NCBI GenBank assembly: GCA_001898505.1
Contig: MKTZ01000015.1
Location: forward strand, 1-64,000
Reading direction: 5' to 3'
Origin: Sphingobacteriales bacterium 50-39
Lineage (GTDB): Bacteria; Bacteroidota; Bacteroidia; Chitinophagales; Chitinophagaceae
DNA length: 64,000 bases
The notes beneath the pieces are model-generated. The model saw only the letters and a program-made list of their open reading frames with translations, did not search any database and was not told the DNA's origin. Below are positions 4,063 through 50,769 of this stretch, in pieces (position 1 is the stretch's first letter; the number at the start of each line of letters is the position of its first letter). Position numbers and translations under genes: made by a program.

Positions 4063-5618
4063 GGCATTATAGCCCGCCTGCCTCCTTTCAGGTATTTTTC
4101 CCTGATCACATCCTGCACCGGCACATTCTCCATCTTGCTCTCCAGCCAGGAAATAATGTCCAGATACACAAAAGCCCTGGTCTCGAACCTGTTCTTCTCA
4201 TATTTCTTCAACTTCTCCAACAGCTTCTCCAATTCAGGACGTATCCTGTCCGGTGAAAGATTGAAGGACTTCCGAAGGAATCTAAATATTTCCTCTTCCA
4301 CCAGGCTCAAATTCTCCATTTTCGCCATAAATCGGTACACCGATTTGGTCAGGTACTCCAGCAATTGGTAATTCCCCAGCTCATAATGCGCGATCAGATG
4401 CAGCAGCCTTGAATAACACTGAAGATCCGTCCGCAGGTCCACCTTCCAATTAATGATCTTGTTCAGATAGTCTATCGTCCGCTCATAATCCCCGCTCCCA
4501 AAATACAGACACGCTATCTTGTAATAAAAAACCAGAATCCTGTGCCGATCCAGATAGATCCAGTACTCCCCCAGCTTCTCCTCTATGTACGGCACCAGCT
4601 CCAGCCCCTCCGTAAAAGTCCCGTCCAGGAAATGCTTGTTCAGCTTGGATATATACAGGTACACAAAGGTCTGTATCCGGTTGTTTATATTCCCCGTCAC
4701 AATGGGAGATTGAGAGAACTCCTCGAACTGCCGCAACGTCTCCGTGAACCTGGGATAATTCATAAGGTCAAAATGTGCCCCTAGAAGGTTATGCATCCCC
4801 TTGATATAATGCGACGTCTCGATAGCCAGCATATATGGCTCCTTCTCGAAAAGATCCACCCACCGCTGCGTATAGCGATAATACATAAGAAAATCCTGCC
4901 GGATAAAAGCATACCAGCAGAAGCTTTGATATTGATACAGCTTCTCGTAAAAACCGGAGCACTCGCTAAGGTCGGCCGGAAGGTTCTTCTCGAAGAACTC
5001 CTGCACCGCGATCTCGTCCTTCTCGTTGCGGGCTACCCCATTGCGGATATACCAGCTGTATAGCTTAAGCGCCAGGTTGGAGAGCTTGCTCATCAATTGC
5101 AGATGTGCATTCACTTCATCTACCTCCGACGTCAGCCTGTCTGCCCTATCCTGCATACTTCGTGTTATATGCAGCGCCTCGATGGTCTTTTCAAAGAAAA
5201 GTATTTGCAAAAGGAAAGTGGTTTGATTATGGGCCTTCGCATTCTCCTTTATCTTATCTAACACCTTGAGACTCTGAAGATATAACCCCTTATTGTAAAG
5301 TATTCTTGCATGATCCAGCTGCTCGTGCAGCAGGATGTCGATATTTGCTTCCTGCCGGATGAGCCGCAGGCTGGTGAGTATCTCCCGATACAAATGAGCC
5401 TTTGCGTTGGACAGCTGTTGTTTCTTGAGGCTTTTGCTTTTCTTTAACAATTGCGCCTCGTCATACTCCTCCATTTTATCCAGAGCGTCAAAGAGTTGTA
5501 TGCTTTGCAGATCCTCGCTGGCTGAATTTCGCTTGATATAGAGCTTAAAGTTGCGTTTCTCCGACTTTTCCAGAGATTTTACCAGTTGGAACAGGGCATC
5601 TGAACTTCGGTTGGGCAT
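4059..5618 (-). CDS. large all-helical protein of unknown function (TPR-like)
   Basis: 519 residues, no signal peptide or membrane segment, predicted almost entirely helical and rich in Leu, Glu, Lys and Tyr. Repeated helix pairs such as LYNKGLYLQSLKVLDKIKEN and LYFGSGDYERTIDYLNKIIN have the spacing of tetratricopeptide-like repeats, so it is probably a cytoplasmic scaffold or sensor. I do not recognise a named family. It is the first gene of a unit with the AraC-type regulator, with which it overlaps by four bases. It is transcribed divergently from leuA, and a good promoter lies in the shared upstream region. Confidence 0.75.
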   Translation of the reverse strand: MPNRSSDALFQLVKSLEKSEKRNFKLYIKRNSASEDLQSIQLFDALDKMEEYDEAQLLKKSKSLKKQQLSNAKAHLYREILTSLRLIRQEANIDILLHEQLDHARILYNKGLYLQSLKVLDKIKENAKAHNQTTFLLQILFFEKTIEALHITRSMQDRADRLTSEVDEVNAHLQLMSKLSNLALKLYSWYIRNGVARNEKDEIAVQEFFEKNLPADLSECSGFYEKLYQYQSFCWYAFIRQDFLMYYRYTQRWVDLFEKEPYMLAIETSHYIKGMHNLLGAHFDLMNYPRFTETLRQFEEFSQSPIVTGNINNRIQTFVYLYISKLNKHFLDGTFTEGLELVPYIEEKLGEYWIYLDRHRILVFYYKIACLYFGSGDYERTIDYLNKIINWKVDLRTDLQCYSRLLHLIAHYELGNYQLLEYLTKSVYRFMAKMENLSLVEEEIFRFLRKSFNLSPDRIRPELEKLLEKLKKYEKNRFETRAFVYLDIISWLESKMENVPVQDVIREKYLKGGRRAIMP

Positions 5619-5687
5619 CGTAATTTAAAACTTTAAAATCCTTTACAGCAGCGGGTTTTGGAAGAAAAAGCCCCCATTAAAAGGTGT

Positions 5688-5710
5688 AAAATCATATTAA
5701 TTATGATTTT
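5688..5710. repeat. perfect inverted repeat in the leuA upstream region
   Basis: AAAATCATA, five bases, TATGATTTT: a perfect 9-bp AT-rich palindrome between the two divergent genes. It may be an operator or part of a leader RNA; it has no T-tract that would make it a terminator. Confidence 0.4.
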
Positions 5711-5757
5711 AAGCCCAAAATAAAGAAAGCTAAATTTATTTTTCCGGAATAGGCATA

Positions 5758-5789
5758 CAAAGATAATATCCGTTCCCGAAACGAACCAA
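5758..5789 (-). promoter_or_regulatory. promoter of the 519-residue helical protein gene
   Basis: On the minus strand: TTG (5789-5787), 21 bases, TATCTTTG (5765-5758). This matches the Bacteroidota -33/-7 pattern. The -33 part overlaps the palindromic element at 5780-5810. The transcript would have a leader of about 130 nt. Confidence 0.55.
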
Positions 5790-5810
5790 TGGTTCGTTGT
5801 CCGTGAGGAC
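5780..5810. repeat. double-hairpin palindromic element, copy 1
   Basis: AACGAACC-AAT-GGTTCGTT followed by GTCC-GTGA-GGAC: two adjacent perfect hairpins. The same two-hairpin unit occurs in inverted orientation at 9042-9071. It lies 35 bases before the leuA ATG. Confidence 0.65.
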
Positions 5811-5844
5811 AGACATTAAACATCTAACACCTATAAATAATTCT

Positions 5845-7014
5845 ATGTCCGACAAAAAGATCTACATTTTCGATACCACTCTCCGGGATGGCGAGCAGGT
5901 GCCTGGCTGTAAGCTCAATACTGCTGAAAAGGTCGAGCTGGCCCAGCACCTGGAAGCCCTTGGCGTCGATATCATCGAAGCGGGCTTCCCCATCTCCAGC
6001 CCCGGTGACTTTCACTCCGTGGAAGAGATCGCCAAGATCGTTAAAGAAGCCACCGTCTGCGGCCTCACCCGCGCCGTTCAGAAGGATATAGAGTGCGCCG
6101 CACAGGCGCTCAAACACGCCAAACGCCCCCGTATCCACACCGGCATCGGCACGTCCGACTTTCACATAAAGAGCAAGTTCAACTCCACCCGGGATGAGAT
6201 CATTCAACGCGCCGTTCAGGCCGTAAAATGGGCCCGCAACCTCGTGGATGACGTAGAGTTCTTCGCGGAAGACGCCGGCCGCACCGATAACGAATACCTG
6301 GCCCGTGTAGTCGAAGCCGTCATCGCCGCCGGAGCCACGGTCGTCAATATACCCGATACCACAGGCTACTGCCTTCCCGATCAATACGGTGAAAAGATAG
6401 CTTTCCTGATCAACAACGTAAAGAATGTCGACAAGGCCGTCCTCTCCTGCCATTGCCACAACGACCTCGGCCTGGCTACTGCCAACTCCATCGCCGGCAT
6501 CCGCGGCGGCGCCCGCCAGATAGAATGTACTATCAACGGCCTCGGCGAAAGAGCCGGCAACACTTCCCTGGAAGAAGTGGTCATGGTGATCAAACAGCAC
6601 AAACACCTGGGATTCTATACCAATATAAAAACAGAAAAGCTCAACCCCATGAGCCGCCTGGTTTCGGACACCATGCGCATGCCCGTACAGCCCAACAAGG
6701 CCATCGTAGGGGCCAACGCCTTCTCCCACTCCTCCGGCATCCACCAGGACGGATTCCTCAAGGACGCCTCCACCTACGAGATCATCAACCCCGATGAAGT
6801 GGGCGCCGACGGCTCCAAGATCGTACTGACAGCCCGCAGCGGCCGCAGCGCCCTCGCCTTCCGCTTCCAGAAGCTGGGCTACACATTTAATCGCAACGAC
6901 ATCGACGTATTATACGAAAGGTTCCTAAAAGTAGCAGACACGAAAAAAGAGGTAGTTGAAGCTGACCTTGAAGAGCTGGCAAAAGCTTATAACAAGACAG
7001 CCGTTACTGCCTGA
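5845..7014 (+). CDS. leuA: 2-isopropylmalate synthase, short form
   Basis: 389 residues. It condenses acetyl-CoA with 2-oxoisovalerate, the first committed step to leucine. The DTTLRDGEQ motif near residue 10 and the metal-binding histidines in SCHCHNDLG and the GLGERAGN segment identify the HMGL-like TIM barrel. The start is the ATG of MSDKKIYIF; an in-frame TTG 48 bases upstream would read through the palindromic element and is unlikely. The length is that of the barrel plus a short tail, lacking the ~120-residue C-terminal domain that gives leucine feedback inhibition in the long forms. Homocitrate or citramalate synthase activity is possible from sequence alone, but the leuCDB neighbours settle it as LeuA. 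Confidence 0.93.
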
Positions 7015-9115: not shown

Positions 9116-10231
9116 ATGCAAAAGAACATCGTTGTAATTGAAGGGGACGGCATCGGTCCCGAAGTCACCCGGCAGGCTATTAAAGTGCTCGACGCAGTAG
9201 CCGAACAAGGAGGACATGAGTTCACTTACAAATACTGCCTGATGGGTGCAGACGCCATCGACAAGACAGGCACCCCCCTGCCCGATGAGACCATCGAAGC
9301 AGCCCTCAACAGCGATGCCATCCTCTTCGGCGCCATCGGTCATCCCAGGTACGACAATGACCCCACCGCCAAAGTTCGCCCCGAGCAGGGATTGCTCAAA
9401 TTAAGGAAGTCATTACAATTGTTTGCCAATATCAGGCCGGTGACCACTTATCCGGCCTTACAACATTTATCCCCCCTCAAGGCCAAAATCCTCGAGGACG
9501 TGGATTTTATCATTTTCCGTGAGCTGACAGGCGGTATCTACTTTGGGAAAAAAGAAACCTCCGCCGACGGCAGCCAGGCCCTCGACGATTGCACCTACAC
9601 CCGTGAAGAGATCGAACGCATCGCTCACCTCGCCTTCCGCCAGGCTCAGCAAAGAAGAAAAAAGCTGACCCTCGTGGATAAGGCCAACGTACTGGAAACC
9701 TCCCGCCTGTGGAGAAAAGTCATCCAGGAGCTCGCCGGCAGCTACAGCGATGTCAAATTGGATTTCCTCTTCGTGGACAATGCCGCCATGCAGATCATTC
9801 TCAACCCCAAACAGTTCGACGTCATCCTGACCGAGAATATGTTCGGCGACATCCTCAGCGATGAGGCCAGCGTCATCAGCGGCTCACTCGGTCTGCTTCC
9901 CTCGGCATCCATCGGTAAGGGAGCCGCCCTCTTCGAACCCATACACGGCTCCTATCCCCAGGCCGCCGGTAAGGACATCGCTAACCCCCTGGGCAGCATC
10001 CTCTCCGCAGCCATGCTGCTGGATCATTTCGGGTTGCATAAAGAAGCTGGAAAAATACGCGAAGCCGCCAACTGGACATTGCAGAACAGCTTCGTAACAA
10101 AGGACATCGACCCGGTGAATTTTTATTTCACCTCTACCATCGGCGAGCTCATCAGCGACTATGTCGGCGGCAAGATCCCGGGCGATATCCATAAGGAAAA
10201 TATAGAGTTGCGTAAGTCAACCATCATATAG
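9116..10231 (+). CDS. leuB: 3-isopropylmalate dehydrogenase
   Basis: 371 residues. It oxidises and decarboxylates 3-isopropylmalate with NAD to the leucine keto acid. The family motifs are visible: GDGIGPEV near residue 10, LLKLRKSLQLFANIRP near residue 95, RELTGGIYFG near residue 137, and the metal-binding stretch NMFGDILSDEAS followed by the nucleotide-binding EPIHGSYPQAAGKDIANP. It closes the leuACDB unit. Its stop codon overlaps the first base of a strong hairpin, after which a new promoter starts the ilv unit. Confidence 0.97.
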   Translation: MQKNIVVIEGDGIGPEVTRQAIKVLDAVAEQGGHEFTYKYCLMGADAIDKTGTPLPDETIEAALNSDAILFGAIGHPRYDNDPTAKVRPEQGLLKLRKSLQLFANIRPVTTYPALQHLSPLKAKILEDVDFIIFRELTGGIYFGKKETSADGSQALDDCTYTREEIERIAHLAFRQAQQRRKKLTLVDKANVLETSRLWRKVIQELAGSYSDVKLDFLFVDNAAMQIILNPKQFDVILTENMFGDILSDEASVISGSLGLLPSASIGKGAALFEPIHGSYPQAAGKDIANPLGSILSAAMLLDHFGLHKEAGKIREAANWTLQNSFVTKDIDPVNFYFTSTIGELISDYVGGKIPGDIHKENIELRKSTII

Positions 10232-10268: not shown

Positions 10269-10299
10269 TTTGTTTATTCGATTGGCGGGAGTATCTTTG
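10269..10299 (+). promoter_or_regulatory. consensus promoter of the ilv leader and operon
   Basis: TTTG (10269-10272), exactly 19 bases, TATCTTTG (10292-10299): a full match to the Bacteroidota housekeeping promoter. Transcription should begin around 10306, about 10 bases before the leader-peptide ATG. Confidence 0.8.
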
Positions 10300-10316
10300 A
10301 TACGAACACATCCCTC

Positions 10317-10418
10317 ATGGACCAACGCAGATTAAATAATGTTATCACTCGACTAGCTGCCACAGCGCTTGTGGTGGTGGTGATTATTATTCCTGCGATC
10401 CAGGGAGGAGGGTGGTAA
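10317..10418 (+). CDS. ilvL: ilv attenuator leader peptide (33 codons)
   Basis: A 33-residue peptide beginning MDQRRLNNVI and containing the run LVVVVIII (codons CTT, GTG x4, ATT x3 at 10368-10391), then PAIQGGGW and stop. Such a block of regulatory codons just before a terminator is the hallmark of attenuation leaders; it strongly recalls the enterobacterial ilvGMEDA leader, which also has a Val/Ile run followed by Pro. The Gly-Gly-Gly-Trp codons at the end form the antiterminator arm. The ATG lies some 10 nt after the expected transcription start, with no Shine-Dalgarno sequence, as is common in this phylum. The gene symbol is by analogy. Confidence 0.85.
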   Translation: MDQRRLNNVITRLAATALVVVVIIIPAIQGGGW

Positions 10419-10460
10419 TAGAATAACTATACAAATCAAAATACCAGCGACCCGCCTCCC
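10403..10460 (+). promoter_or_regulatory. ilv antiterminator (alternative pairing)
   Basis: GGGAGGAGGGT (10403-10413, inside the last leader codons) can pair with ACCCGCCTCCC (10450-10460), giving 10 of 11 base pairs with one A-G mismatch. The second arm is the left half of the terminator, so the two structures exclude each other. A ribosome stalled at the Val/Ile codons leaves the first arm largely free (antitermination); a ribosome reaching the stop codon at 10416 covers it (termination). Confidence 0.75.
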
Positions 10461-10481
10461 AAAGGCGGGTCGCTTTTTTTT
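10446..10481 (+). terminator. ilv attenuator terminator
   Basis: AGCGACCCGCCT (10446-10457), loop CCCAA, AGGCGGGTCGCT (10463-10474), then a run of eight Ts starting with the last stem base (10474-10481). It is a perfect 12-bp GC-rich intrinsic terminator located 28 bases after the leader stop codon and 122 bases before ilvE. Confidence 0.92.
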
Positions 10482-10603
10482 AGACCCCGACTAGGACCAA
10501 CCGTTTTGCACCACAGGTGCAAAGCCCGAAGGGCCGACATTAGCGTCCTTGAAAAATCAATGGTCTGGTCCGACTAGGACCAACAACTATAAAAAGATAT
10601 TAT
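10482..10603 (+). repeat. hairpin-rich spacer between attenuator and ilvE
   Basis: Holds two direct copies of CCGACTAGGACCAAC (10487-10501 and 10570-10584); the second is part of a GGTCC-GACTA-GGACC hairpin. Between them are TTTGCACC-ACA-GGTGCAAA (10505-10523) and the block GCCCGAAGGGCC-GA-CATTAGCG (10524-10545), which recurs in inverted orientation at 13291-13312. No coding frame was seen. It probably belongs to the same class of palindromic intergenic elements found elsewhere in this operon. Confidence 0.6.
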
Positions 10604-11515
10604 ATGGCATACTACAATGAAAATACCGTTCTCTGGCTGGACGGCAACATCGTGAAGGCTTCGGAAGCCAAAACCGACCTCTATGGTCAGTCCCTCCACT
10701 ACGGCTACGCCGTATTCGAAGGCATCCGCTCCTATCGCACCGCCGCCGGCGCCACCAGGATCTTCAAGGAAGTCGAACACTACGACCGCCTCCGCAGATC
10801 CGCCGAAGCATTGAATATGCCCTATCGCTACACCACAAGCGAACTCATCGAAGCCACGTACGACATCCTGGAAAAGAACAAGCTCCAGGACGCCTATATC
10901 CGGCCCGTCGTCTACGGCCCCGCCAATATGAGCTTTTCCCCCAACACCGAATCCTACACCGTCATCCAGGTCTGGGAAATGGCTCCCTTCCTCGGTGAAA
11001 AACTATTACGCGTCATGACCTCCTCCTTCCAACGCCCCAATCCAAAAGGCTTTAAGATCGAGGCAAAAGCATCCGGTCATTACGTCAACTCCATCCTCGC
11101 CAGCCAGGAAGCCAAGGCCAAAGGCTTTGACGAGGCCCTGCTCACTGACATGAATGGATTCATCGCCGAAGGCCCCGGCGCCAATATGTTCTTTGAAAAG
11201 GACGGAAAGCTCTTTACCCCGGCCCCAGGCAATATCCTGCCAGGCATCACCCGCGCTACGGTGCTGGAAATAGCCGCCGAACTGGGCATACCCGTCGAAG
11301 AAGGTCAGTATACCATCCAACAGCTGAAAACAGCCGACGCCGCCTTCTTCTGCGGCACCGCAGCAGAGGTCATTGGCTGGGATTCTATCGACAACACGAA
11401 ATTCCCTACCCCCTGGAAAGACACCACGGGACGCAGGATACAACAGGCCTATATGGACAGGGTCACAGAACAACAGCATCAAACAGCAAAACAGACTCAA
11501 TTAGCAACAGCATAA
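10604..11515 (+). CDS. ilvE: branched-chain amino acid aminotransferase
   Basis: 303 residues, fold-type IV PLP enzyme. It performs the last step for Val, Leu and Ile with glutamate as amino donor. Visible features are the [10 protein letters not shown] stretch near residue 33, the PLP lysine in a [17 protein letters not shown] context near residue 155, and [12 protein letters not shown] followed by [14 protein letters not shown]. Length is typical. It is the first structural gene after the attenuator and is followed 19 bases later by ilvD. Its amino donor links it to the downstream gltBD genes. Confidence 0.96.
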
Positions 11516-11534: not shown

Positions 11535-13214
11535 ATGGAACTGAATAAATACAGCAAGACACTCACACAGGACATTACACAACCCGCCGCACAAGCGATG
11601 TTGTACGGTATTGGATTGACAGATGAAGACCTCCAAAAGGCACAGGTAGGCATCGCCAGCATGGGCTACGATGGCAACACCTGCAACATGCACCTCAACG
11701 ACCTCGCCAAACTGGTAAAAGAAGGCGTATGGGACAAAGACCTGGTAGGACTCATCTTCAATACCATCGGCGTCAGCGACGGCATGAGCAATGGCACAGA
11801 CGGTATGCGCTATTCCCTCGTCAGCCGCGATATCATCGCCGACTCCATCGAAGCCGTCTGCGGCGCACAATACTACGACGGGCTCATCGCCCTGCCCGGC
11901 TGCGATAAGAACATGCCCGGCACCATTATAGCCATGGGCAGGCTCAACCGCCCCTCCATCATGGTGTACGGCGGCACCATCGCCCCGGGTCACTACAAAG
12001 GACAGGATCTCAACATCGTCTCCGCCTTCGAAGCGCTGGGACAAAAGATTGCCGGTAAGCTCGACGATGCCGACTTTAAAGGCATCGTGATGAACTCCTG
12101 TCCCGGCGCAGGCGCCTGCGGCGGCATGTACACGGCCAATACGATGGCAGCCGCCATCGAAGCCCTCGGCATGAGCCTCCCCTACTCCTCTTCCAACCCC
12201 GCCCTCAGCGAAGACAAAAAGAAAGAATGCCACGCAGCCGGCGGCGCCATCCGCCTCCTGCTGGAAAAAGATATAAAGCCCCGCGACATCATGACCCGCA
12301 AGGCTTTTGAAAATGCCATCACCACCATCATGGTACTGGGAGGCAGCACCAACGCGGTTCTTCACCTCATCGCCATGGCCCGCAGCGTGGACGTCCCGCT
12401 GACACAAGACGATTTCCAGGCCATCAGCGACAGGATACCCGTACTGGCCGACTTTAAGCCCAGCGGCAAATACCTGATGCAGGACCTTCACGACCACGGA
12501 GGCATCCCGGCCGTCATGAAATATCTCCTTGAAAAAGGACTGCTCCACGGCGACTGCCTCACGGTCACAGGCAAGACACTGGCTGAGAATCTGAAAGACA
12601 TCCCCGCCATCGATTTTAAAAAACAGGATATCATCTATCCCCTGGAAAAACCCATCAAAGCCACCGGCCACCTGCAGATCCTCTACGGTAACCTCGCCTC
12701 CGGCGGCAGCGTTGCCAAGATCAGCGGCAAGGAAGGCGAAAGGTTTGAAGGACCCGCGCGTGTATTCGATGGCGAACATGACCTGATCAATGGCATCAAT
12801 ACGGGGAAGATAAGATCCGGCGACGTAGTGGTCATCCGCTACGTGGGACCCAAGGGCGCCCCCGGTATGCCCGAAATGCTGAAACCCACCTCCGCGCTCA
12901 TCGGCGCCGGACTGGGCAAAAGCGTAGCCCTCATCACGGATGGCCGGTTCAGTGGCGGCACCCACGGTTTCGTGGTAGGTCATATCACACCCGAAGCCCA
13001 CGAAGGCGGCGCCATCGCACTCGTACAGGACGATGATACCATCGAGCTCGATGCAGTAAAGAACACCATCACTCTGAAGATATCCCCGGAAGAATTAGCC
13101 AAAAGACAGGCGGCCTGGAAACAGCCACCGCTGAAGGCTACCAAGGGTCTCTTATATAAATACGCAAAACAAGTGAAGAACGCAGCCGAAGGATGCGTTA
13201 CTGACGAATTTTAA
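11535..13214 (+). CDS. ilvD: dihydroxy-acid dehydratase
   Basis: 559 residues. It dehydrates dihydroxyisovalerate and dihydroxymethylvalerate to the keto acids of Val and Ile and carries an Fe-S cluster. Cluster cysteines lie in [10 protein letters not shown] near residue 118 and in [18 protein letters not shown] near residue 190; the C-terminal [15 protein letters not shown] signature is complete. Length is typical. The 145-base gap to ilvB contains a large hairpin and a copy of the palindromic block. Confidence 0.97.
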
Positions 13215-13359: not shown

Positions 13360-15120
13360 ATGAGCAACAGCACAACAACATCCGCCCCCACACAGCCAAA
13401 GGCCAAAGCCGCCGCCCAAAAGCCCGCTGCCCGCGAGATCAGCGGCTCCGCCGCCGTCCTCGAAGCTTTCCTGGAAGAAGGCGTAGACACCATATTCGGC
13501 TATCCGGGTGGCGCTATCATGCCTATCTATGATGCGCTCTACGACTATCAGGATAAATTGAAACATATCCTCGTCCGGCACGAACAGGGTGGCATACACG
13601 CCGCACAGGGCTATGCCCGCGCCTCCGGCAGAACAGGTGTTGTATTCGCTACCAGCGGCCCCGGCGCCACCAACCTCGTCACCGGCCTGGCTGACGCCCT
13701 CATCGATAGCACCCCGCTCGTTTGTATCACCGGACAGGTCTTTGCTCACCTGCTCGGCACAGACGCCTTCCAGGAGACAGACGTGATCAATATCACCACT
13801 CCCATCACCAAGTGGAACTACCAGGTCACCGACGCCACGGAAATACCTTCCGTCCTGGCAAAAGCATTTTACATCGCCGGCAGCGGCCGCCCCGGTCCTG
13901 TGCTCATCGATATCACCAAGAATGCTCAGATACAGAAGTTCAACTACGAAGGCTATCAGAAATGCAACCATATCCGCAGCTATAGGCCAAAACCTATCGT
14001 CCGTAAAGAATACGTCCAAAAAGCAGCCGAACTGATCAACAAGGCACAACGCCCCTTTATCCTTTTCGGACAGGGAGTGATCCTCGGCAAGGCGGAGAAA
14101 GAGTTCCGGGCCTTCATTGAAAAGACAGGCATTCCCTCCGCATGGACCATCATGGGTCTTAGCGCCCTGCCCACCGACCACCCACTCAACGTAGGCATGC
14201 TGGGCATGCATGGCAACTACGGCCCCAACGTGCTCACCAATGAATGCGATGTGCTGATCGCGATAGGCATGCGCTTTGACGATCGGGTGACGGGTCGCCT
14301 CGACAAATACGCCAAACAGGCCCAGGTCATCCACCTGGACATCGATCCGGCGGAAATAGATAAGAACGTAAAGTCCGCCGTACCCGTCTGGGGCGACTGT
14401 AAAGAAACCCTGCCCATGCTCACCGAGCTGGTGGAGAAAAAGACTCACACCCAATGGCTTCAAAAATTCAAGGACTATTATAAGGAAGAGGTAGACGCCG
14501 TCATACACGACGAGCTCAACCCCACCGCCGAACAGATGACGATGGGCGAAGTGATGAAATCGCTCAACGAGCTCACAGGCGGTGACGCCATCATCGTGAC
14601 AGATGTAGGCCAGCACCAGATGGTAGCCTGCCGCTATGCCCGGTTCAACCAGTCCCACAGCAATATCACCTCCGGAGGGCTTGGCACCATGGGCTTTGGA
14701 TTACCCGCTGCCATCGGCGCCAAATTCGGCGCACCCGACCGCACCGTAGTCGCCATCATCGGTGATGGAGGCTTCCAAATGACCCTCCAGGAACTAGGCA
14801 CCATCATGCAAAGCGAGATAGACGTGAAGATCCTGATCCTGAACAATCGCTTCCTGGGAATGGTCCGCCAGTGGCAGCAGCTCTTCCATGACAAACGCTA
14901 TTCCTTTGTTGACATCACCAGCCCCGATTTCGTTACCGTGGCCAAAGGTTATGGCATCGCAGGCAACAGCATCGATAAAAGAAAGGATTTGCATCAGGCG
15001 CTAAAAGCTATGCTCGATCACAAAGGATCCTACCTGCTGGAAGTATTCGTAGGTAAGGAAAACAACGTATTCCCCATGGTACCCCAGGGCTGCAGCGTTG
15101 CCGAGATCAGGCTTAAATAA
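13360..15120 (+). CDS. ilvB: acetolactate synthase, large (catalytic) subunit
   Basis: 586 residues, TPP-dependent. It makes acetolactate and acetohydroxybutyrate for the Val/Leu and Ile branches. After a ~25-residue low-complexity Ala/Pro/Lys extension, the N-terminal TPP-binding PYR domain begins (ISGSAAVLEAFLEEGVDTIFGYPGG, glutamate in the VRHEQGGIHAAQGYAR stretch); the middle domain follows and the C-terminal PP domain shows GDGGFQMTLQEL with the GDG...N TPP-Mg motif. The partner subunit IlvN is not next but one gene further, separated by a methyltransferase. Confidence 0.97.
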   Translation: MSNSTTTSAPTQPKAKAAAQKPAAREISGSAAVLEAFLEEGVDTIFGYPGGAIMPIYDALYDYQDKLKHILVRHEQGGIHAAQGYARASGRTGVVFATSGPGATNLVTGLADALIDSTPLVCITGQVFAHLLGTDAFQETDVINITTPITKWNYQVTDATEIPSVLAKAFYIAGSGRPGPVLIDITKNAQIQKFNYEGYQKCNHIRSYRPKPIVRKEYVQKAAELINKAQRPFILFGQGVILGKAEKEFRAFIEKTGIPSAWTIMGLSALPTDHPLNVGMLGMHGNYGPNVLTNECDVLIAIGMRFDDRVTGRLDKYAKQAQVIHLDIDPAEIDKNVKSAVPVWGDCKETLPMLTELVEKKTHTQWLQKFKDYYKEEVDAVIHDELNPTAEQMTMGEVMKSLNELTGGDAIIVTDVGQHQMVACRYARFNQSHSNITSGGLGTMGFGLPAAIGAKFGAPDRTVVAIIGDGGFQMTLQELGTIMQSEIDVKILILNNRFLGMVRQWQQLFHDKRYSFVDITSPDFVTVAKGYGIAGNSIDKRKDLHQALKAMLDHKGSYLLEVFVGKENNVFPMVPQGCSVAEIRLK

Positions 15121-15170: not shown

Positions 15171-15944
15171 ATGCAAACAAGGACAAATACCAGCTGGAAT
15201 GCCGCCCTCTACGAAGACAAACATTCGTTTGTCTTCAAATACGGAGAGGACCTGATCAGCATGCTCGCCCCACAGGCAGGTGAAAGGATCCTGGACCTGG
15301 GCTGCGGTACAGGACACCTCACCCACCAGATATCCCTCACCGGCGCACGGGTGACAGGCATCGACAGCTCCGCCTCCATGATCGGGAAGGCATCCGTTAT
15401 CTTTCCGGACATCGACTTCCGGGTCATGTCCGCCACGGATTTCCATTTTGATGAGTCGTTCGATGCCATTTTCTCCAATGCCGTACTGCATTGGGTGCTG
15501 GATAAAGAAACCGCCATCGACTGCATCACACACCACCTCCGCCCCGGTGGTCGTCTCGTGCTCGAGATGGGTGGGAAAGGTAATGTGGAAGACATCGTGG
15601 TCAATACCCGTAAGGTCCTCACCCGGCACGGGTATTATAAGAATGCAACCACCCAGCTCTGGTACTTCCCTTCCCTGGGAGAATATACCTCCCTCCTGGA
15701 AAAGAAAGGCTTTCGTATCAACTATGCATCGCATTACGACCGACCGACTGAACTCCAGGACACCGAAAATGGCATCAAGGACTGGATCAGGATGTTCGGC
15801 AATGCGTTCTTTAAGGATATCCCCCAAAAAGACATCGACCCCGTTCTGGAAGAGATACAGGAATCCGTACGGTCCACCAACTATCGCAATCACAAATGGT
15901 ATGGTAATTATAAAAGACTGAGAATAGAAGCAGTCAAAAATTAA
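15171..15944 (+). CDS. class I SAM methyltransferase inside the ilv operon
   Basis: 257 residues. The SAM-binding motif I is ILDLGCGTGHLTHQI near residue 40, followed by the acidic VTGIDSSASMI and the motif IV/V segment SFDAIFSNAVLHWV. The W in HWV and the overall layout resemble trans-aconitate methyltransferases (Tam family). It sits between ilvB and ilvN, the two subunits of one enzyme, 50 bases after ilvB and 5 bases before ilvN, so it is surely co-transcribed. The substrate is unknown. Yeast Tmt1 of the trans-aconitate type also methylates 3-isopropylmalate, a leucine intermediate, so a pathway acid is a reasonable guess but no more. Confidence 0.85.
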   Translation: MQTRTNTSWNAALYEDKHSFVFKYGEDLISMLAPQAGERILDLGCGTGHLTHQISLTGARVTGIDSSASMIGKASVIFPDIDFRVMSATDFHFDESFDAIFSNAVLHWVLDKETAIDCITHHLRPGGRLVLEMGGKGNVEDIVVNTRKVLTRHGYYKNATTQLWYFPSLGEYTSLLEKKGFRINYASHYDRPTELQDTENGIKDWIRMFGNAFFKDIPQKDIDPVLEEIQESVRSTNYRNHKWYGNYKRLRIEAVKN

Positions 15945-15949
15945 AAAAT

Positions 15950-16546
15950 ATGAACTCGAACAAGCAACAATACACCATCACCGTCTACACGGAAAACCAG
16001 ATCGGCCTGCTCAACCGCATCGCCATCCTGTTCTCCCGCCGTAAGATCAATGTCGAGAGCCTCAACACCTCTCCCTCCGAGGCGGAAGGCATCCATCGCT
16101 TCACCATCGTTATCAACGAGACGGAAGAAGTGGTGAGAAAGCTCTGCCGCCAGATAGAAAAGCAGGTGGACATCCTCAAGGCCTATTACAACACCAATGA
16201 AGAGATCATCTGGCAGGAGATGGCCCTGTACAAAGTGTCCACGGAAGAGATAGCCGAAAAAGTAAAGGTGGAACGCCTCCTTCGCGAATACGGTGCCCGC
16301 GCCGTAGTGATCCGTAAGGACTACACCGTCTTCGAGACCACCGGACAAAGGGAGGAGACCAACAAGCTCATCGAAGTGCTGGAACCCTACGGTCTCATCG
16401 AATTCGTACGCAGCGCCCGGATCGCGATTATCAAGGACAGCCACGGCTTCCATGAAAAATTGAAAGAGTTCGAATCCAGCGAACCTGGCGAGAACGTAGT
16501 AGCAAACGAGTATCTCAATCAGCAGGACAAGGTCTTCACTATGTAG
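15950..16546 (+). CDS. ilvN: acetolactate synthase, small (regulatory) subunit
   Basis: 198 residues. An N-terminal ACT domain (YTITVYTENQIGLLNRIAIL, then RRKINVESLNTSPSE) binds the feedback inhibitor, usually valine; the C-terminal half (LLREYGARAVVIRKDYTVFETTG) is the ACHC domain that contacts and activates IlvB. Length is longer than the enterobacterial ~100-residue forms and like the ~160-200-residue forms of other bacteria. It follows the methyltransferase by five bases. Confidence 0.95.
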   Translation: MNSNKQQYTITVYTENQIGLLNRIAILFSRRKINVESLNTSPSEAEGIHRFTIVINETEEVVRKLCRQIEKQVDILKAYYNTNEEIIWQEMALYKVSTEEIAEKVKVERLLREYGARAVVIRKDYTVFETTGQREETNKLIEVLEPYGLIEFVRSARIAIIKDSHGFHEKLKEFESSEPGENVVANEYLNQQDKVFTM

Positions 16547-16606: not shown

Positions 16607-17692
16607 ATGGCAAAGTTAAATTTCGGCGGCGTGGAAGAAAATGTAGTCACAAGGGATGAATTCCCACTCGCCAAAGCACAGCAGGTATTGAAAAATGAAG
16701 TGGTAGCCGTCATCGGCTATGGTGTCCAGGGACCCGGCCAGTCGCTGAATCAGAAAGATAATGGTATCAATGTCATCGTAGGACAACGGAAAAATTCCAA
16801 ATCCTGGGATAAAGCAGTAAAAGACGGATTCGTTCCCGGCCAGACGCTGTTCGACATCGAAGAAGCTCTCCAGAAAGGCACCATCATCTGCTACCTGCTC
16901 AGCGACGCCGCCCAGATCCAATTGTGGCCCACTGTAAAAAAACACCTGACCCCCGGTAAGGCATTATATTTCTCTCATGGCTTCGGTATCACCTTTAACG
17001 AACAGACAGGCATCGTTCCTCCCAAGGACGTGGACGTATTCCTGGTTGCTCCTAAAGGCTCCGGCACCTCGCTGAGAAGAATGTTCCTCCAGGGTCGTGG
17101 GCTCAATAGCAGCTACGCCATCTTCCAGGACGCCACCGGCAAAGCAAAGGACCGCGTTATCGCACTGGGCATCGCCGTAGGTAGCGGCTATTTGTTCGAG
17201 ACGGACTTCAGAAAAGAAGTATTCAGCGACCTGACTGGCGAACGCGGTACGCTGATGGGCGCCATCCAGGGGATCTTCGCAGCCCAGTATGAAGTATTAC
17301 GCAAAAAAGGACACACTCCCTCCGAAGCCTTCAACGAGACAGTGGAAGAGCTGACACAATCCCTGATGCCGCTGGTAGCAGAGAATGGTATGGACTGGAT
17401 GTACGCCAACTGTTCCACTACTGCGCAAAGAGGCGCGCTGGACTGGTGGAAAAAATTCCGCGACGCCACCCTGCCCGTCTTCAACGAGCTGTATGAAAGC
17501 GTAGCCACCGGCAAGGAATCCCAACGCTCCATCGACTCCAACAGCCAACCCGACTATCGCGAAAAGCTGGAAGCCGAACTGAAGGAACTCCGTGAAAGCG
17601 AACTGTGGCAGGCAGGCAAGACGGTAAGAAGCCTCCGCCCCGAGAACCAGGCCGTTCCCGAAAAGAAAGCCAAAGAAACAGTAAATGCATAG
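16607..17692 (+). CDS. ilvC: ketol-acid reductoisomerase
   Basis: 361 residues. It isomerises and reduces acetolactate and acetohydroxybutyrate with NADPH and Mg. The Rossmann motif GYGVQGPGQSLN lies near residue 38; the loop VGQRKNSKSW that follows carries Arg and Ser suited to the NADPH phosphate. The knotted C-terminal helical domain has the metal ligands in SDLTGERGTLMG and the helix with ETVEELTQSLMPL. Slightly longer than class I enzymes because of a charged C-terminal tail. Its last codons overlap the ilvA start by eight bases. Confidence 0.96.
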   Translation: MAKLNFGGVEENVVTRDEFPLAKAQQVLKNEVVAVIGYGVQGPGQSLNQKDNGINVIVGQRKNSKSWDKAVKDGFVPGQTLFDIEEALQKGTIICYLLSDAAQIQLWPTVKKHLTPGKALYFSHGFGITFNEQTGIVPPKDVDVFLVAPKGSGTSLRRMFLQGRGLNSSYAIFQDATGKAKDRVIALGIAVGSGYLFETDFRKEVFSDLTGERGTLMGAIQGIFAAQYEVLRKKGHTPSEAFNETVEELTQSLMPLVAENGMDWMYANCSTTAQRGALDWWKKFRDATLPVFNELYESVATGKESQRSIDSNSQPDYREKLEAELKELRESELWQAGKTVRSLRPENQAVPEKKAKETVNA

Positions 17693-18959
17693 CATATCAC
17701 TTTCTCCGGCGCCCCCGACAGGGGCGCCGGAATTAAATTTCCAGGCAGCAGCCGGCAGATTGAAGAAAGTAGTGAAAAGGACACCCCTGACCTACAATCA
17801 CAATCTCTCCCGCAAATATGCCTGCAAAGTCTATCTGAAAAGAGAAGACTTGCAGGTAGTCCGTTCCTATAAGCTAAGAGGCGCCTACAACATGATGGTA
17901 AGCCTGCCCCCCGCACAATTGCAGAAAGGCGTCGTATGCGCCAGCGCAGGCAATCATGCCCAGGGTTTTGCTTTCTCCTGCCGCAAACTAGGCGTAAAAG
18001 GAGTCGTATTTATGCCCATCATCACCCCCAAACAAAAGGTCACACAGACCCGCATGTTTGGAGAGAACAATATCGAGATCATCCTCACAGGCGATACATT
18101 CGACGACTGCGCCGTCGCAGCCCGCGAGTATACGACCTCCAACGGAATGACCTTTATCCCCCCCTTCGACGATCTCCGTATCATCGAAGGACAAGGCACC
18201 GTGGCAGTGGAAATACTGGAAGATCAGCCCGATATCGACTACCTCTTCGTCCCCGTGGGCGGCGGTGGCCTCGCATCCGGCGTAGGCTCCTATTTCAAGA
18301 CACACTCGCCCGGCACGAAGATCATCGGCGTCGAACCCGAAGGCGCCCCCTCCATGAAGGAAGCCCTGAAAGCCGGCCACCCGGTGACCCTCGATAATAT
18401 CGAACGGTTCGTAGACGGCGCCGCCGTAAAAAGAGTAGGCGACCTCACCTTCCGCTTCTGCCAGGAAGCTTTGGACGAAATGCACCTCGTTCCCGAAGGA
18501 AAAGCCTGCTCCACCATCCTCAAACTGTACAACGAGGACGCCATCGTCGTCGAGCCCGCCGGCGCCCTCAGCATCGCAGCCCTGGATGATTACGCCGACG
18601 CCATAAAAGGCAAGACAGTCGTATGCATCGTCAGCGGCAGCAACAACGACATCGATCGCATGCAGGAGATAAAGGAAAGGTCCCTGCAGTACGAAGGACT
18701 AAAACACTATTTCCTGGTAAAATTCGCTCAGCGTCCCGGCGCATTAAAGGAATTCGTGAACCATGTCCTCGGCCCCGGCGACGATATCACCCGCTTCGAA
18801 TACATGCAGAAACACAACAAAGAGACAGGCCACGCCCTGGTAGGCATCGAGCTCCGCGCCCGGGAAGATTACCAGACACTCATCGACAACCTGAAAAAAT
18901 TCAATATATCCTATACAGAGCTCAATAAGAACGATACCCTTTTCAGCTACCTCGTGTAG
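17685..18959 (+). CDS. ilvA: threonine dehydratase (threonine ammonia-lyase)
   Basis: 424 residues. It converts threonine to 2-oxobutyrate, the entry step of isoleucine synthesis. The PLP lysine is in SYKLRGAYNMM near residue 65, the phosphate-binding loop is VGGGGLASGVG, and the C-terminal ~80 residues form an ACT-like regulatory domain (YFLVKFAQRPGALKEFV). The start overlaps ilvC by eight bases. Codons 8-16 form a perfect 11-bp hairpin (17705-17731: TCCGGCGCCCC / GGGGCGCCGGA), which may lower translation of this last gene of the operon. Together with thrABC in the same window it links threonine to isoleucine supply. Confidence 0.95.
   Translation: MHSISLSPAPPTGAPELNFQAAAGRLKKVVKRTPLTYNHNLSRKYACKVYLKREDLQVVRSYKLRGAYNMMVSLPPAQLQKGVVCASAGNHAQGFAFSCRKLGVKGVVFMPIITPKQKVTQTRMFGENNIEIILTGDTFDDCAVAAREYTTSNGMTFIPPFDDLRIIEGQGTVAVEILEDQPDIDYLFVPVGGGGLASGVGSYFKTHSPGTKIIGVEPEGAPSMKEALKAGHPVTLDNIERFVDGAAVKRVGDLTFRFCQEALDEMHLVPEGKACSTILKLYNEDAIVVEPAGALSIAALDDYADAIKGKTVVCIVSGSNNDIDRMQEIKERSLQYEGLKHYFLVKFAQRPGALKEFVNHVLGPGDDITRFEYMQKHNKETGHALVGIELRAREDYQTLIDNLKKFNISYTELNKNDTLFSYLV
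17705..17731 (+). repeat. strong hairpin inside the ilvA start region
   Basis: TCCGGCGCCCC, five bases, GGGGCGCCGGA: a perfect 11-bp GC stem 20 bases after the ilvA ATG. Strong structure so close to a start codon usually depresses translation or makes it depend on a ribosome arriving from ilvC. Confidence 0.55.
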
Positions 18960-48113: not shown

Positions 48114-48227
48114 GTGATCGGTTTTAACAACCATATTATCTCATCTCCTACGACGCACGCAGAACCCATTTCCGCTGCGCAAGTTACAACTATTATCACC
48201 TCCACGACAACATCCACAACCCGTTAA
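48114..48227 (+). CDS. thrL: threonine/isoleucine leader peptide for thrABC (putative)
   Basis: 37 codons from a GTG placed just after the expected transcription start. The last 14 codons translate to VTTIITSTTTSTTR: eight Thr and two Ile, with all four Thr codons used. This is the same logic as the enterobacterial thrL peptide (Thr/Ile-rich). The stop codon TAA lies in the loop of a perfect hairpin ACAACCC-GTTAA-GGGTTGT (48216-48234). No intrinsic terminator with a T-tract was found between the stop and thrA, so the way it controls thrA is open. The frame is also open further upstream, but an earlier start would precede the promoter. Symbol by analogy. Confidence 0.65.
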   Translation: MIGFNNHIISSPTTHAEPISAAQVTTIITSTTTSTTR

Positions 48228-48234
48228 GGGTTGT
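48216..48234 (+). promoter_or_regulatory. hairpin spanning the thr leader stop codon
   Basis: ACAACCC (48216-48222), GTTAA, GGGTTGT (48228-48234). The right arm can alternatively pair with AAACCC at 48276-48281 upstream of thrA, which would release the left arm. A ribosome at the stop codon would block the first pairing and favour the second. The competing pairings suggest a switch; no T-tract follows. Confidence 0.45.
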
Positions 48235-48321: not shown

Positions 48322-50769
48322 ATGCAGGTCTTAAAATTCGGAGGTACTTCAGTAGCCAACGGGGAAAATATAAACAAGGTCGTTCAATTGGTACGCACAG
48401 CCATGGCAAAGGATAGGACTATCCTGGTCGTTTCAGCGCTGGGAGGGGTCACGGATATGCTCATCCAGGCCGGTCTTGCCGCCGCCGCAGGAGATGAATC
48501 CTACAAAGAAAAATTACACGTGGTGGAACAACGCCACCTGGAAGCCGTAAAACATCTTATCCCGCTCACCCGTCAGAGCAGCATCCTCAGCCTGGTCAAA
48601 ACAAAATGCAATGAGATAGAAGACATCTGCAACGGCGTATTCCTCCTCAGCGAATTGTCGAACCGCACCCGCGACAAGATCGTCAGCTATGGCGAGCTGC
48701 TCTCTTCTCTCATCATCGCCGCCCGCTTTGACGCATTGGAAGTCCGAAATACGTGGAAGGATTCCCGTGAGCTCATCAGCACCGACTCCAATTTCGGCTA
48801 TGCCGCCGTGGATTTCCCTCTCACCAATCAAAAGATCCGGGAATACTTCGACAATAATAAAGGAGATCTCTTTATACTGCCGGGCTTCATAGCTTCCGAC
48901 AGCCATGGCATCACCACTACCCTTGGACGGGGTGGTTCGGACTATACGGCAGCCATACTCGCCGCAGCGGTAGACGCTCATGCATTGGAAATATGGACGG
49001 ACGTCTCCGGCATGATGACGGCCGATCCCCGCCTGGTATCCAACGTAAAGCTCATCCCGCATATATCCTACCAGGAGGCCATGGAGCTGTCCCATTTTGG
49101 CGCAAAAGTAATCTATCCACCCACTATCCAGCCGGTAATGGCAAAAGGCATCCCCGTCTGGATAAAGAATACTTTTTCGCCTTCCGACACCGGCACCTTG
49201 ATAGAACACGAATCTGCCCGTAATGGCGGTGGCAGCATCCGCGGCATCTCCAGCATCGGGAAGATCGCGCTCCTTAGCCTGGAAGGCAGCGGCATGGTAG
49301 GCATACCAGGCTTCTCCAAACGTCTTTTCGAAGCCCTCTCCAATGAAAAGATCAACGTTATACTCATTACCCAGGGCTCTTCCGAGCACTCGATATGCGT
49401 AGGCGTGGAAGAAGCCAGCGCCGACGCTGCCAAGACAGCCGTAGACCGCGCCTTTAGCCACGAGATCGAGACGGAAAAAGTAGAACCTCTTATCCTGGAA
49501 AAGGATCTTTCCATCGTAGCTCTCGTAGGCGATCATATGAAGAGCCACCCGGGGGTCAGTGGAAAAATGTTCGGGGTGCTGGGACGCAATGGCGTCAATG
49601 TCCGCGCCATCGCCCAGGGATCCTCGGAAAGGAATATCTCCGCGGTCATCGCCGCCGCAGATGTAAAGAAGGCCATCAACGTATTGCACGAAGGCTTCTT
49701 TTCCACCACCTACAAACAGATCAACCTCTTCATCACAGGCGCAGGTAATGTAGGACGCCGTCTGCTGGACCAGCTAAAACAGCAACATAGCTACCTGCAG
49801 GATCAGCTTCGTCTGCAGGTACGTGTCATCGGCATTGCCAATAGCCGTAAAATGATCTTCAATGACAATGGTATCCCCCTCGACAGCTGGAAACAGGCCC
49901 TGGAAGAAGGCGTCCCGATGAGCCTCCCCGCATGGGTGGAAGGCATCACGTCGAGGAATCTGCGTAACGCAGTCTTTGCAGATATCACCGCCCATCCCGA
50001 TGTGGCCGTCTGTTACGACAGCCTGCTGCAGAAGAGCATTGCCGTAGTGGCCTGTAATAAGATAGCCTGCTCTTCTCCCTATGACTATTACCGCCGTCTG
50101 AAAGACCTTTCCCGCGAATACAACGCCCCCTTCCTCTTCGAGACCAATGTAGGCGCCGGCCTCCCGGTCATCGGTACGCTGAACGACCTGCTGCGCAGCG
50201 GCGATAAGGTCGGCAGGATCGAAGCCGTACTAAGCGGAACCCTCAACTTCGTTTTCAATCACTACAACGGGGAGAGATCCTTCTCGGAAGTGGTCCGTCA
50301 GGCACAAAAGGAAGGCTATACCGAGCCGGATCCTCGCCTCGACCTCAGCGGTACGGATGTCATGCGTAAGATCATGATCCTGGCCAGGGAGGCAGGGCAA
50401 AAAATAGAAATGGAGGACATAGAGAACCATTCTTTCCTGCCCGCATCCTGTCTCAAAGGCAGCGTTGAAGACTTCTATAAGGCCATGACAGAAGAAGAGG
50501 CGCACTTTAAAAAGCTGTACGACGCGGCCTTCAAGGCAGGGAAAAAACTGAAATTCGTGGCCCAGTACGAGCATGGTAAGGCTTCCGTAGGATTGCAGCA
50601 CATCGGCCCCGAACAGGACCTGTATCATTTGTATGGTAAGGACAATGTCGTACTGTTCTACACCGATCGCTATCCCGAACAGCCCCTGGTGATCAAGGGT
50701 GCGGGCGCAGGTGCAGAAGTGACAGCCTCCGGTGTATTCGCAGATATTATCCGGGCCGCAAGAGTCTAA
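48322..50769 (+). CDS. thrA: bifunctional aspartokinase / homoserine dehydrogenase
   Basis: 815 residues. The N-terminal ~285 residues are the aspartokinase (KFGGTSVANGENI at the start), followed by two ACT domains for threonine feedback (IALLSLEGSGMVGIPGFSKRLF and SIVALVGDHMKSHPGVSGKMFG), and the C-terminal ~350 residues are homoserine dehydrogenase (INLFITGAGNVGRRLLDQL near residue 468). It commits aspartate to threonine and methionine. It is preceded by a Thr/Ile-rich leader peptide and followed 51 bases later by thrB. Confidence 0.97.
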   Translation: MQVLKFGGTSVANGENINKVVQLVRTAMAKDRTILVVSALGGVTDMLIQAGLAAAAGDESYKEKLHVVEQRHLEAVKHLIPLTRQSSILSLVKTKCNEIEDICNGVFLLSELSNRTRDKIVSYGELLSSLIIAARFDALEVRNTWKDSRELISTDSNFGYAAVDFPLTNQKIREYFDNNKGDLFILPGFIASDSHGITTTLGRGGSDYTAAILAAAVDAHALEIWTDVSGMMTADPRLVSNVKLIPHISYQEAMELSHFGAKVIYPPTIQPVMAKGIPVWIKNTFSPSDTGTLIEHESARNGGGSIRGISSIGKIALLSLEGSGMVGIPGFSKRLFEALSNEKINVILITQGSSEHSICVGVEEASADAAKTAVDRAFSHEIETEKVEPLILEKDLSIVALVGDHMKSHPGVSGKMFGVLGRNGVNVRAIAQGSSERNISAVIAAADVKKAINVLHEGFFSTTYKQINLFITGAGNVGRRLLDQLKQQHSYLQDQLRLQVRVIGIANSRKMIFNDNGIPLDSWKQALEEGVPMSLPAWVEGITSRNLRNAVFADITAHPDVAVCYDSLLQKSIAVVACNKIACSSPYDYYRRLKDLSREYNAPFLFETNVGAGLPVIGTLNDLLRSGDKVGRIEAVLSGTLNFVFNHYNGERSFSEVVRQAQKEGYTEPDPRLDLSGTDVMRKIMILAREAGQKIEMEDIENHSFLPASCLKGSVEDFYKAMTEEEAHFKKLYDAAFKAGKKLKFVAQYEHGKASVGLQHIGPEQDLYHLYGKDNVVLFYTDRYPEQPLVIKGAGAGAEVTASGVFADIIRAARV

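Follow-up and report, generated by a model that had tools for sequence, protein, structure and literature searches.

The Bacteroid-trp motif, a structured RNA located at trp genes, is read as an attenuator. It is listed among the candidate structured RNAs of Bacteroidetes (RF01692; PMC2864571). Upstream of amino-acid operons of Flavobacterium psychrophilum, strong clues to leader-peptide attenuation have already been stated (PMC9723704), so that such control is less of a novelty in Bacteroidota than a preliminary description of the locus analyzed here, which called it little described, had supposed. Short ORFs of Bacteroides thetaiotaomicron have been called reminiscent of leader-peptide attenuation (PMC7366714). 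The comparative attenuation survey of Lopatovskaya et al. (2010), cited in PMC4833913, may also cover Bacteroidetes. In Corynebacterium, a uORF at ilvB belongs to the ilvB-II motif (PMC10272879). None of the papers searched combines "Chitinophaga," "leader peptide," and "attenuation."

We analyzed a stretch of 64,000 nucleotides (the window) from Sphingobacteriales bacterium 50-39, a member of the Chitinophagaceae. All parts of a putative switch lie between the end of leuB at 10231 and the start of ilvE (Table 1). We are confident in reading this element as a ribosome-mediated transcription attenuator, with charged tRNA-Val and tRNA-Ile as the signals to which it responds. Comparison with relatives supports the coding of the leader, the terminator, the antiterminator pairing, and the spacing. 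We infer ribosome stalling, its kinetics, the single operon, and the response to the supply of Val and Ile. The principle is a textbook one, related bacteria have been proposed to carry such switches, and this is a well-supported further case of the classical kind. To the preliminary description we add a further antiterminator helix, a predicted sensor specificity corrected to Val and Ile, and a default-ON state predicted by folding.

The F. psychrophilum candidates, whose transcripts were mapped, come from the same phylum, and the same mechanism has been proposed for them (PMC9723704). They differ in that the structured elements stand before pheA and hisG and that the main text of that paper does not contain "ilv." Like the window, the Corynebacterium ilvB-II uORF and the ilvB-OMG motif combine a uORF rich in branched-chain amino acids (BCAA) with a terminator and antiterminator before ilvB. 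However, ilvB-II belongs to another phylum, encodes peptides of 15 to 17 aa as a rule, and precedes genes in the order ilvBNC (PMC10272879), and neither motif has an Rfam match in the window. The Escherichia coli K-12 ilvXGMEDA leader (ilvL, b3766) also precedes ilv genes, and its peptide, MTALLRVISLVVISVVVIIIPPCGAALGRGKA, contains VVVIIIP. Positions 10374 to 10393 of the window are identical to ilvL in 19 of 20 nt, at GTGGTGGTGATTATTATTCC, whereas the arm, the terminator sequence, and the downstream codons differ. This shared stretch may reflect either homology or convergence. Two distant phyla thus have nearly identical strings of regulatory codons (a GTG run, an ATT run, and Pro), and ATT is otherwise rare here.

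Table 1. Positions of the switch elements and neighboring genes in the window
Feature	Position	Strand	Basis
Promoter-like pair: TTTG (-33 type, 10269-10272), N19, TATCTTTG (-7 type, 10292-10299)	10269..10299	+	sequence
Interval between -7 element and start codon, 17 nt; 5' UTR predicted at about 11-13 nt	10300..10316	+	start inferred
Leader ORF MDQRRLNNVITRLAATALVVVVIIIPAIQGGGW, 33 codons, ATG 10317 to stop TAA 10416-10418	10317..10418	+	sequence, conserved frame
Regulatory codon run (LVVVVIII): CTT 10368-10370, GTG x4 10371-10382, ATT x3 10383-10391	10368..10391	+	sequence
Antiterminator 5' arm GGGAGGAGGGTGGTA: spans final Gly codons, Trp codon, and part of stop codon	10403..10417	+	
Antiterminator 3' arm TACC...ACCCGCCTCCC, overlapping left arm of terminator	10442..10460	+	
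Intrinsic terminator: AGCGACCCGCCT-CCCAA-AGGCGGGTCGCT (10446-10474), 12-bp stem, 5-nt loop, T to 10481	10446..10481	+	
Filler of about 107 bp between terminator and ilvE	10484..10590		sequence
ilvE, branched-chain aminotransferase, first regulated gene	10604..11515	+	TIGR01122 above cut-off
ilvD	11535..13214	+	profile match
ilvB	13360..15120	+	profile match
SAM methyltransferase-like gene within ilv cluster	15171..15944	+	profile matches
ilvN	15950..16546	+	profile matches
ilvC	16607..17692	+	profile match
ilvA (threonine dehydratase)	17685..18959	+	PALP + Thr_dehydrat_C

Gene context and the leader ORF

Profile matches gave the gene order leuA-C-D-B on the 5' side of the element and ilvE-D-B-methyltransferase-N-C-A on its 3' side, and for the latter they bore out the identities first proposed. 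The spacing of these seven genes suggests a single transcript. A motif scan found the methyltransferase-like gene between ilvB and ilvN in 6 of 13 relatives as well; a part for it in BCAA synthesis is not evident. The C-terminal regulatory domain of LeuA serves leucine feedback. In LeuA of the window (5845 to 7014; 388 residues scanned), the match to the best profile already ends at position 384 of 516, so the protein seems to have no such domain. A reading of 5600 to 5845 revealed no second attenuator ahead of leuA.

The filler between the terminator and ilvE is bounded by a 13-bp direct repeat, GACTAGGACCAAC, at 10487 to 10499 and 10572 to 10584. It has 19 matches in its own genome at an E value of ≤1, itself included, with partial matches elsewhere in the genome, and the gap between terminator and ilvE is shorter in several relatives. 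The filler looks like a dispersed repeat that widened this gap, and it is probably outside the switch. A GACATTA string similar to that of the filler also occurs ahead of leuA and of hisG.

For comparison, a search with ilvE matched 57 of 58 genomes; 30 loci were kept, and 22 were named loci. We examined 51 ilvE loci (L001 to L052 without L029, a distant homologue). Dropping 7 duplicates and 9 loci without the terminator pattern, as well as L044 (contig end) and L040, left an alignment of 33 distinct rows, the window included. Another 32 loci were looked at, and the 22 distinct ones with an arm and a terminator were added to give a set of 55 sequences.

The promoter-like pair, the 33-codon leader, and the codon run were all found where the preliminary description had placed them. 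The pair was judged against what we take to be the Bacteroidota promoter consensus. The consensus of the alignment keeps this promoter-like block as AGTTCTTTG...GTATATTCG, and the distance from the -7 element to the start codon is 15 to 20 nt in the 28 of 33 loci in which a pattern located the element. As first described, no Shine-Dalgarno sequence was seen ahead of the leader (10300 to 10316); the ribosomes of Bacteroidota hide their anti-Shine-Dalgarno sequence (PMC10931766). The leader frame is open from the aligned start to the run in all 33 loci, and every length is a multiple of three; the start codon is ATG in 29 loci and GTG in 4. The distances from stop codon to terminator, however, spread over all three frame classes (14, 11, and 8 loci). 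Because leader lengths keep the frame while the spacing beyond the stop shows none, this conservation suggests that the leader ORF is translated.

The run itself is made of Ile and Val. In 55 leaders it comprises 284 Ile, 198 Val, and 10 Leu residues (492 in total). The expectation of a conserved Val/Ile/Leu run thus held for Val and Ile and failed for Leu, and we rejected leucine sensing because Leu is not conserved. Codon choice in the run is skewed: in 33 leaders, ATT encodes 138 of 155 Ile residues and GTG 87 of 122 Val residues. In 12 genes of the window, by comparison, ATT makes up only 9% of 395 Ile codons and GTG 25% of 366 Val codons. Such a skew is a known trait of attenuators (PMC1183508). 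The element has a short and presumably translated leader ORF with a codon run for products of its own operon.

These leaders also bear on another explanation, in which the nascent peptide would arrest the ribosome at a hydrophobic run followed by Pro, so that a free amino acid rather than an empty tRNA is sensed. In 47 of 55 leaders, Pro does come right after the longest run, and a PAxxGGG end is common. However, the Gly codons are accounted for by base pairing (the first one is GGA in 30 of 32), Val and Ile differ among leaders in their order and number, some relatives have Thr or Ser in place of Pro, and leaders of other families have other peptides. We therefore consider peptide arrest improbable and favor the sensing of charged tRNA.

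Terminator, antiterminator, and folding model

An intrinsic terminator stands between the leader and the first gene. Its two strands made up rows 2 and 3 among 21 terminator-like sites between 9800 and 20000, where shuffles gave a mean of 13.5. In the 33-locus alignment, 94.3% of the terminator cells are paired, 4 pairs have changes on both sides, and the covariation score is 0.233, compared with 0.123 in shuffles. The double-sided changes are confined to the lower stem. Both hairpins share the upper stem (CCCGCCT/AGGCGGG), and this part hardly varies.

Both the 12-bp terminator and the antiterminator arm were found at the coordinates first given. The arm GGGAGGAGGGT (10403 to 10413) pairs at 10 of 11 positions with ACCCGCCTCCC (10450 to 10460), with one A/G mismatch. 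It had been described as built from the final Gly codons of the leader; this is correct, and over its full extent (10403 to 10417) the arm also takes in the Trp codon and part of the stop codon. In detail, GGGAGG pairs with 10455 to 10460, GGGT with 10450 to 10453, and GGTA with 10442 to 10445. The leader segment was computed to bind the left arm of the terminator at -16.1 kcal/mol. For 200 dinucleotide shuffles the mean was -9.7, and only 1 of them was as good. Across the 33 loci, ≤5% of shuffles were as good in 28 and more than that in 5. The antiterminator, which excludes the terminator, is kept in the relatives: each pair of its core, GGAGG:CCTCC, is formed in at least 30 of 33 loci.

Covariation had been expected in both pairings. 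The terminator bears this out, as described above. The antiterminator core is barely above shuffles (79.3% versus 77.5% pairing, with 1 double-sided change), because GGAGG:CCTCC is nearly invariant. Folding of the window revealed a further antiterminator helix, absent from the preliminary description, in which GGUA of the Trp and stop codons (10414 to 10417) pairs with UACC (10442 to 10445), and the two sides of this helix tend to covary. Among 55 loci, GGTA is present in 12 of the 13 that have TACC, AGTA in 6 of the 11 that have TACT, and TGTA in 5 of the 14 that have TACA; these three matching classes hold only 23 of the 55 loci, and 17 loci have none of TACC, TACT, and TACA. When cognate segments were compared with swapped ones, 0 of 20,000 permutations were as good for 33 sequences and 10 of 20,000 after thinning to 22. 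The larger set gave 0 of 20,000, with all 55 sequences as well as after thinning to 29. Stricter thinning gave 1,427 of 20,000 (16 sequences) and 238 of 20,000 (7 sequences), and the relatedness of the sequences is a caveat.

A simpler account would be a constitutive terminator of leuACDB together with an ORF present by chance, with no regulation. The terminator is strong, and the gene immediately before the element, leuB, is on the same strand. This account is contradicted by the leader frame kept in all 33 loci, by the covarying further helix, and by the conserved promoter-like block between leuB and the terminator. In addition, the next long ORF reads as ilvE, within about 130 nt, in 29 of 32 loci of the family found with the covariance model described below (L061 to L092, by their N termini); it reads as ilvD in L075 and L082 and as an ACT-domain protein in L090. 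We regard this account as very unlikely, and a chance ORF with a plain terminator was rejected on frame conservation and the promoter block.

We suggest that the attenuator works as follows. The RNA would start about 12 nt ahead of the leader, and a ribosome would follow close behind the polymerase. When Val and Ile are plentiful, the ribosome would reach the UAA and cover the arm formed by the final Gly and Trp codons and the stop. With the arm covered, the 12-bp terminator would form, and transcription would end near 10481. When Val or Ile is short, the ribosome would halt within the eight-codon run, with its front edge at or before the arm, which begins 12 nt past the last Ile codon. The free arm would pair at once with the newly made left side of the terminator (GGGAGG:CCUCCC, GGGU:ACCC, and GGUA:UACC), the terminator would be too late to form, and ilvE-D-B-MT-N-C-A would be transcribed. 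Read-through from leuACDB should be gated by the element as well, since leuB immediately precedes it in the same orientation.

The preliminary description proposed that a ribosome reading through to the stop hides the arm and that a stalled one leaves it exposed, and the spacing fits this. The model places the leading edge of the ribosome 12 nt beyond its A site. In 27 of 33 loci, 12 nt separate the last regulatory codon from the arm; in the others the distance is 9, 11, or 21 nt (two each), so that in the model the arm would be free in the stalled state and covered at the stop. With only the left terminator arm transcribed and the ribosome masked, antiterminator pairing exceeded 0.5 in 33 of 33 loci for a stall at the first or last codon of the run; with the ribosome at the stop it did so in 0 of 33, by construction, since the arm is masked. 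Once the full terminator had been transcribed, however, it was favored at equilibrium even with a stalled ribosome (28 of 33 loci for a stall at the first run codon, 29 of 33 for one at the last Ile); L050 was misjudged here, owing to a shifted stem. The switch must therefore be kinetic and act during transcription, as classical attenuators are thought to do.

When no ribosome was present and the 5' end was set 10, 12, or 15 nt before the start codon, antiterminator pairing exceeded 0.5 in 30 of 33 loci and was 1.0 in the window. By this folding, the operon would stay ON when its leader is not translated. A protector (1:2) hairpin, which hides the arm of an untranslated leader, is of the E. 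coli type. None was found here, and it is not regarded as essential to the class.

The same procedure, applied to E. coli ilvL (L142), recovered the classical stalled state. There, too, the arm comes soon after the run, and the antiterminator pairs (1.0) with a ribosome at the first Val of the run. Pairing is 0.43 at the last Ile with a 12-nt edge, because the arm starts only 5 nt past that codon, compared with 12 nt in the window, and it is 0 with a ribosome at the stop. The ribosome-free ilvL leader gave 0.01, 0.15, and 0.98 with the 5' end 42, 30, and 12 nt before the start, compared with 1.0 in the window at 10 to 15 nt. The E. coli ilv leader RNA starts about 32 nt before the leader ORF. 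The predicted ON/OFF contrast between the two systems depends on this RNA start.

Related leaders in the family and the phylum

Among the 9 loci without the terminator pattern, a leader is present in L008 and L051 and expected in L036, whose contig is as long as that of L008, and L040, dropped because the wrong terminator had been picked, also has one. With enough sequence present, the leader is absent upstream of ilvE in L043, where leuB directly precedes ilvE, and in L049. No leader was seen upstream of ilvE in L028 and L030, and L026 and L027 offer only 118 and 143 nt there. A covariance model matched 183 of 294 genomes of the family at an E value of ≤0.01; these E values are rough, and some of the genomes supplied the model. 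The other 111 of 294 had no match, and strict filters lose weak ones. In its own genome, the model gave one strong match and 11 others at an E value of ≥0.8. A pattern of arm plus terminator found only the window site there, listed twice, and the reversed control pattern also gave 2 hits.

Rfam release 15, its leader families included, had 0 matches in the window at the gathering score; the best match below it reached 26 bits against a cut-off of 55, and Thr_leader reached 18.1 of 55 bits. On ten sister or relative loci, the sole leader-type match was Phe_leader in L101, also below threshold (33.2 of 55 bits). Identity with a known RNA family was rejected accordingly. A riboswitch, T-box, or protein-binding leader that needs no translation, for which the extensive folding of the ribosome-free leader might speak, is the least credible explanation of all, given these scores and a conservation that tracks codons.

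The genome holds other leaders of this kind. Before hisG, MKIRTHHHHHHFFLPNHMSGVRRW, with six His codons, is followed by a terminator (L143 from 1105). On contig 25, MTKKLINKLWWWHTNSKRGK, with three Trp codons, is likewise followed by a terminator before a chorismate-binding gene (L147 from 750), which is probably trpE; the other of the two chorismate-binding genes in this genome has no such leader. Within the window, a candidate Thr/Ile-rich leader with a GTG start (48114 to 48233; VIGFNNHIISSPTTHAEPISAAQVTTIITSTTTSTTR) ends in a hairpin, CAACCCGTTAAGGGTTG, that lacks a T-run. A homoserine dehydrogenase fusion gene follows about 90 nt further on, at 48322.

At an E value of ≤0.001, a class-wide search matched 25 of 395 genomes, of which 5 belong to the family. 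Of the 20 loci from outside it (L093 to L112), eight have BCAA-rich leaders (L093, L094, L096, L097, L098, L100, L101, and L102) before ilvE, ilvD, or ilvN, L106 has a His leader ahead of hisG, and L109 has a Thr/Ile leader ahead of a gene for aspartokinase, the genes being read from their N termini; the other ten are equivocal or chance-like. We also used 27 ilvD loci, ilvD being present in 26 of 129 genomes at an E value of ≤1e-100. A candidate leader plus terminator lies upstream of ilvD in 10 of the 27, the window included, and at least 2 of these are doubtful (L119 and L127). As controls, the opposite strand gave 0 of 27 and the sequence downstream of ilvD gave 4 of 27. We read these four as true leaders rather than noise. 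In L126, L127, L129, and L134, from other Bacteroidota families, ORFs such as MNTKNNNIIVVVVSSLG are followed by a terminator downstream of ilvD. They possibly stand before ilvB, so that the place of the attenuator in the operon may move.

The odds seem even to us that leader-peptide attenuation is ancient and widespread as a control layer of amino-acid synthesis in Bacteroidota, with ilv, his, trp, and perhaps thr as its cases in this one genome. Such control would work without a Shine-Dalgarno sequence and with a predicted 5' UTR of about 12 nt, would take its antiterminator from the last codons and the stop, and would be ON by default without a protector hairpin. The folding model makes a sharp prediction: loss of the leader start codon should turn the operon ON. 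If attenuation is general, it implies tight coupling of ribosome and polymerase in Bacteroidota, which to our knowledge has been little examined. The conserved element offers an easy test of whether the ribosomes of Bacteroidota closely follow RNA polymerase.
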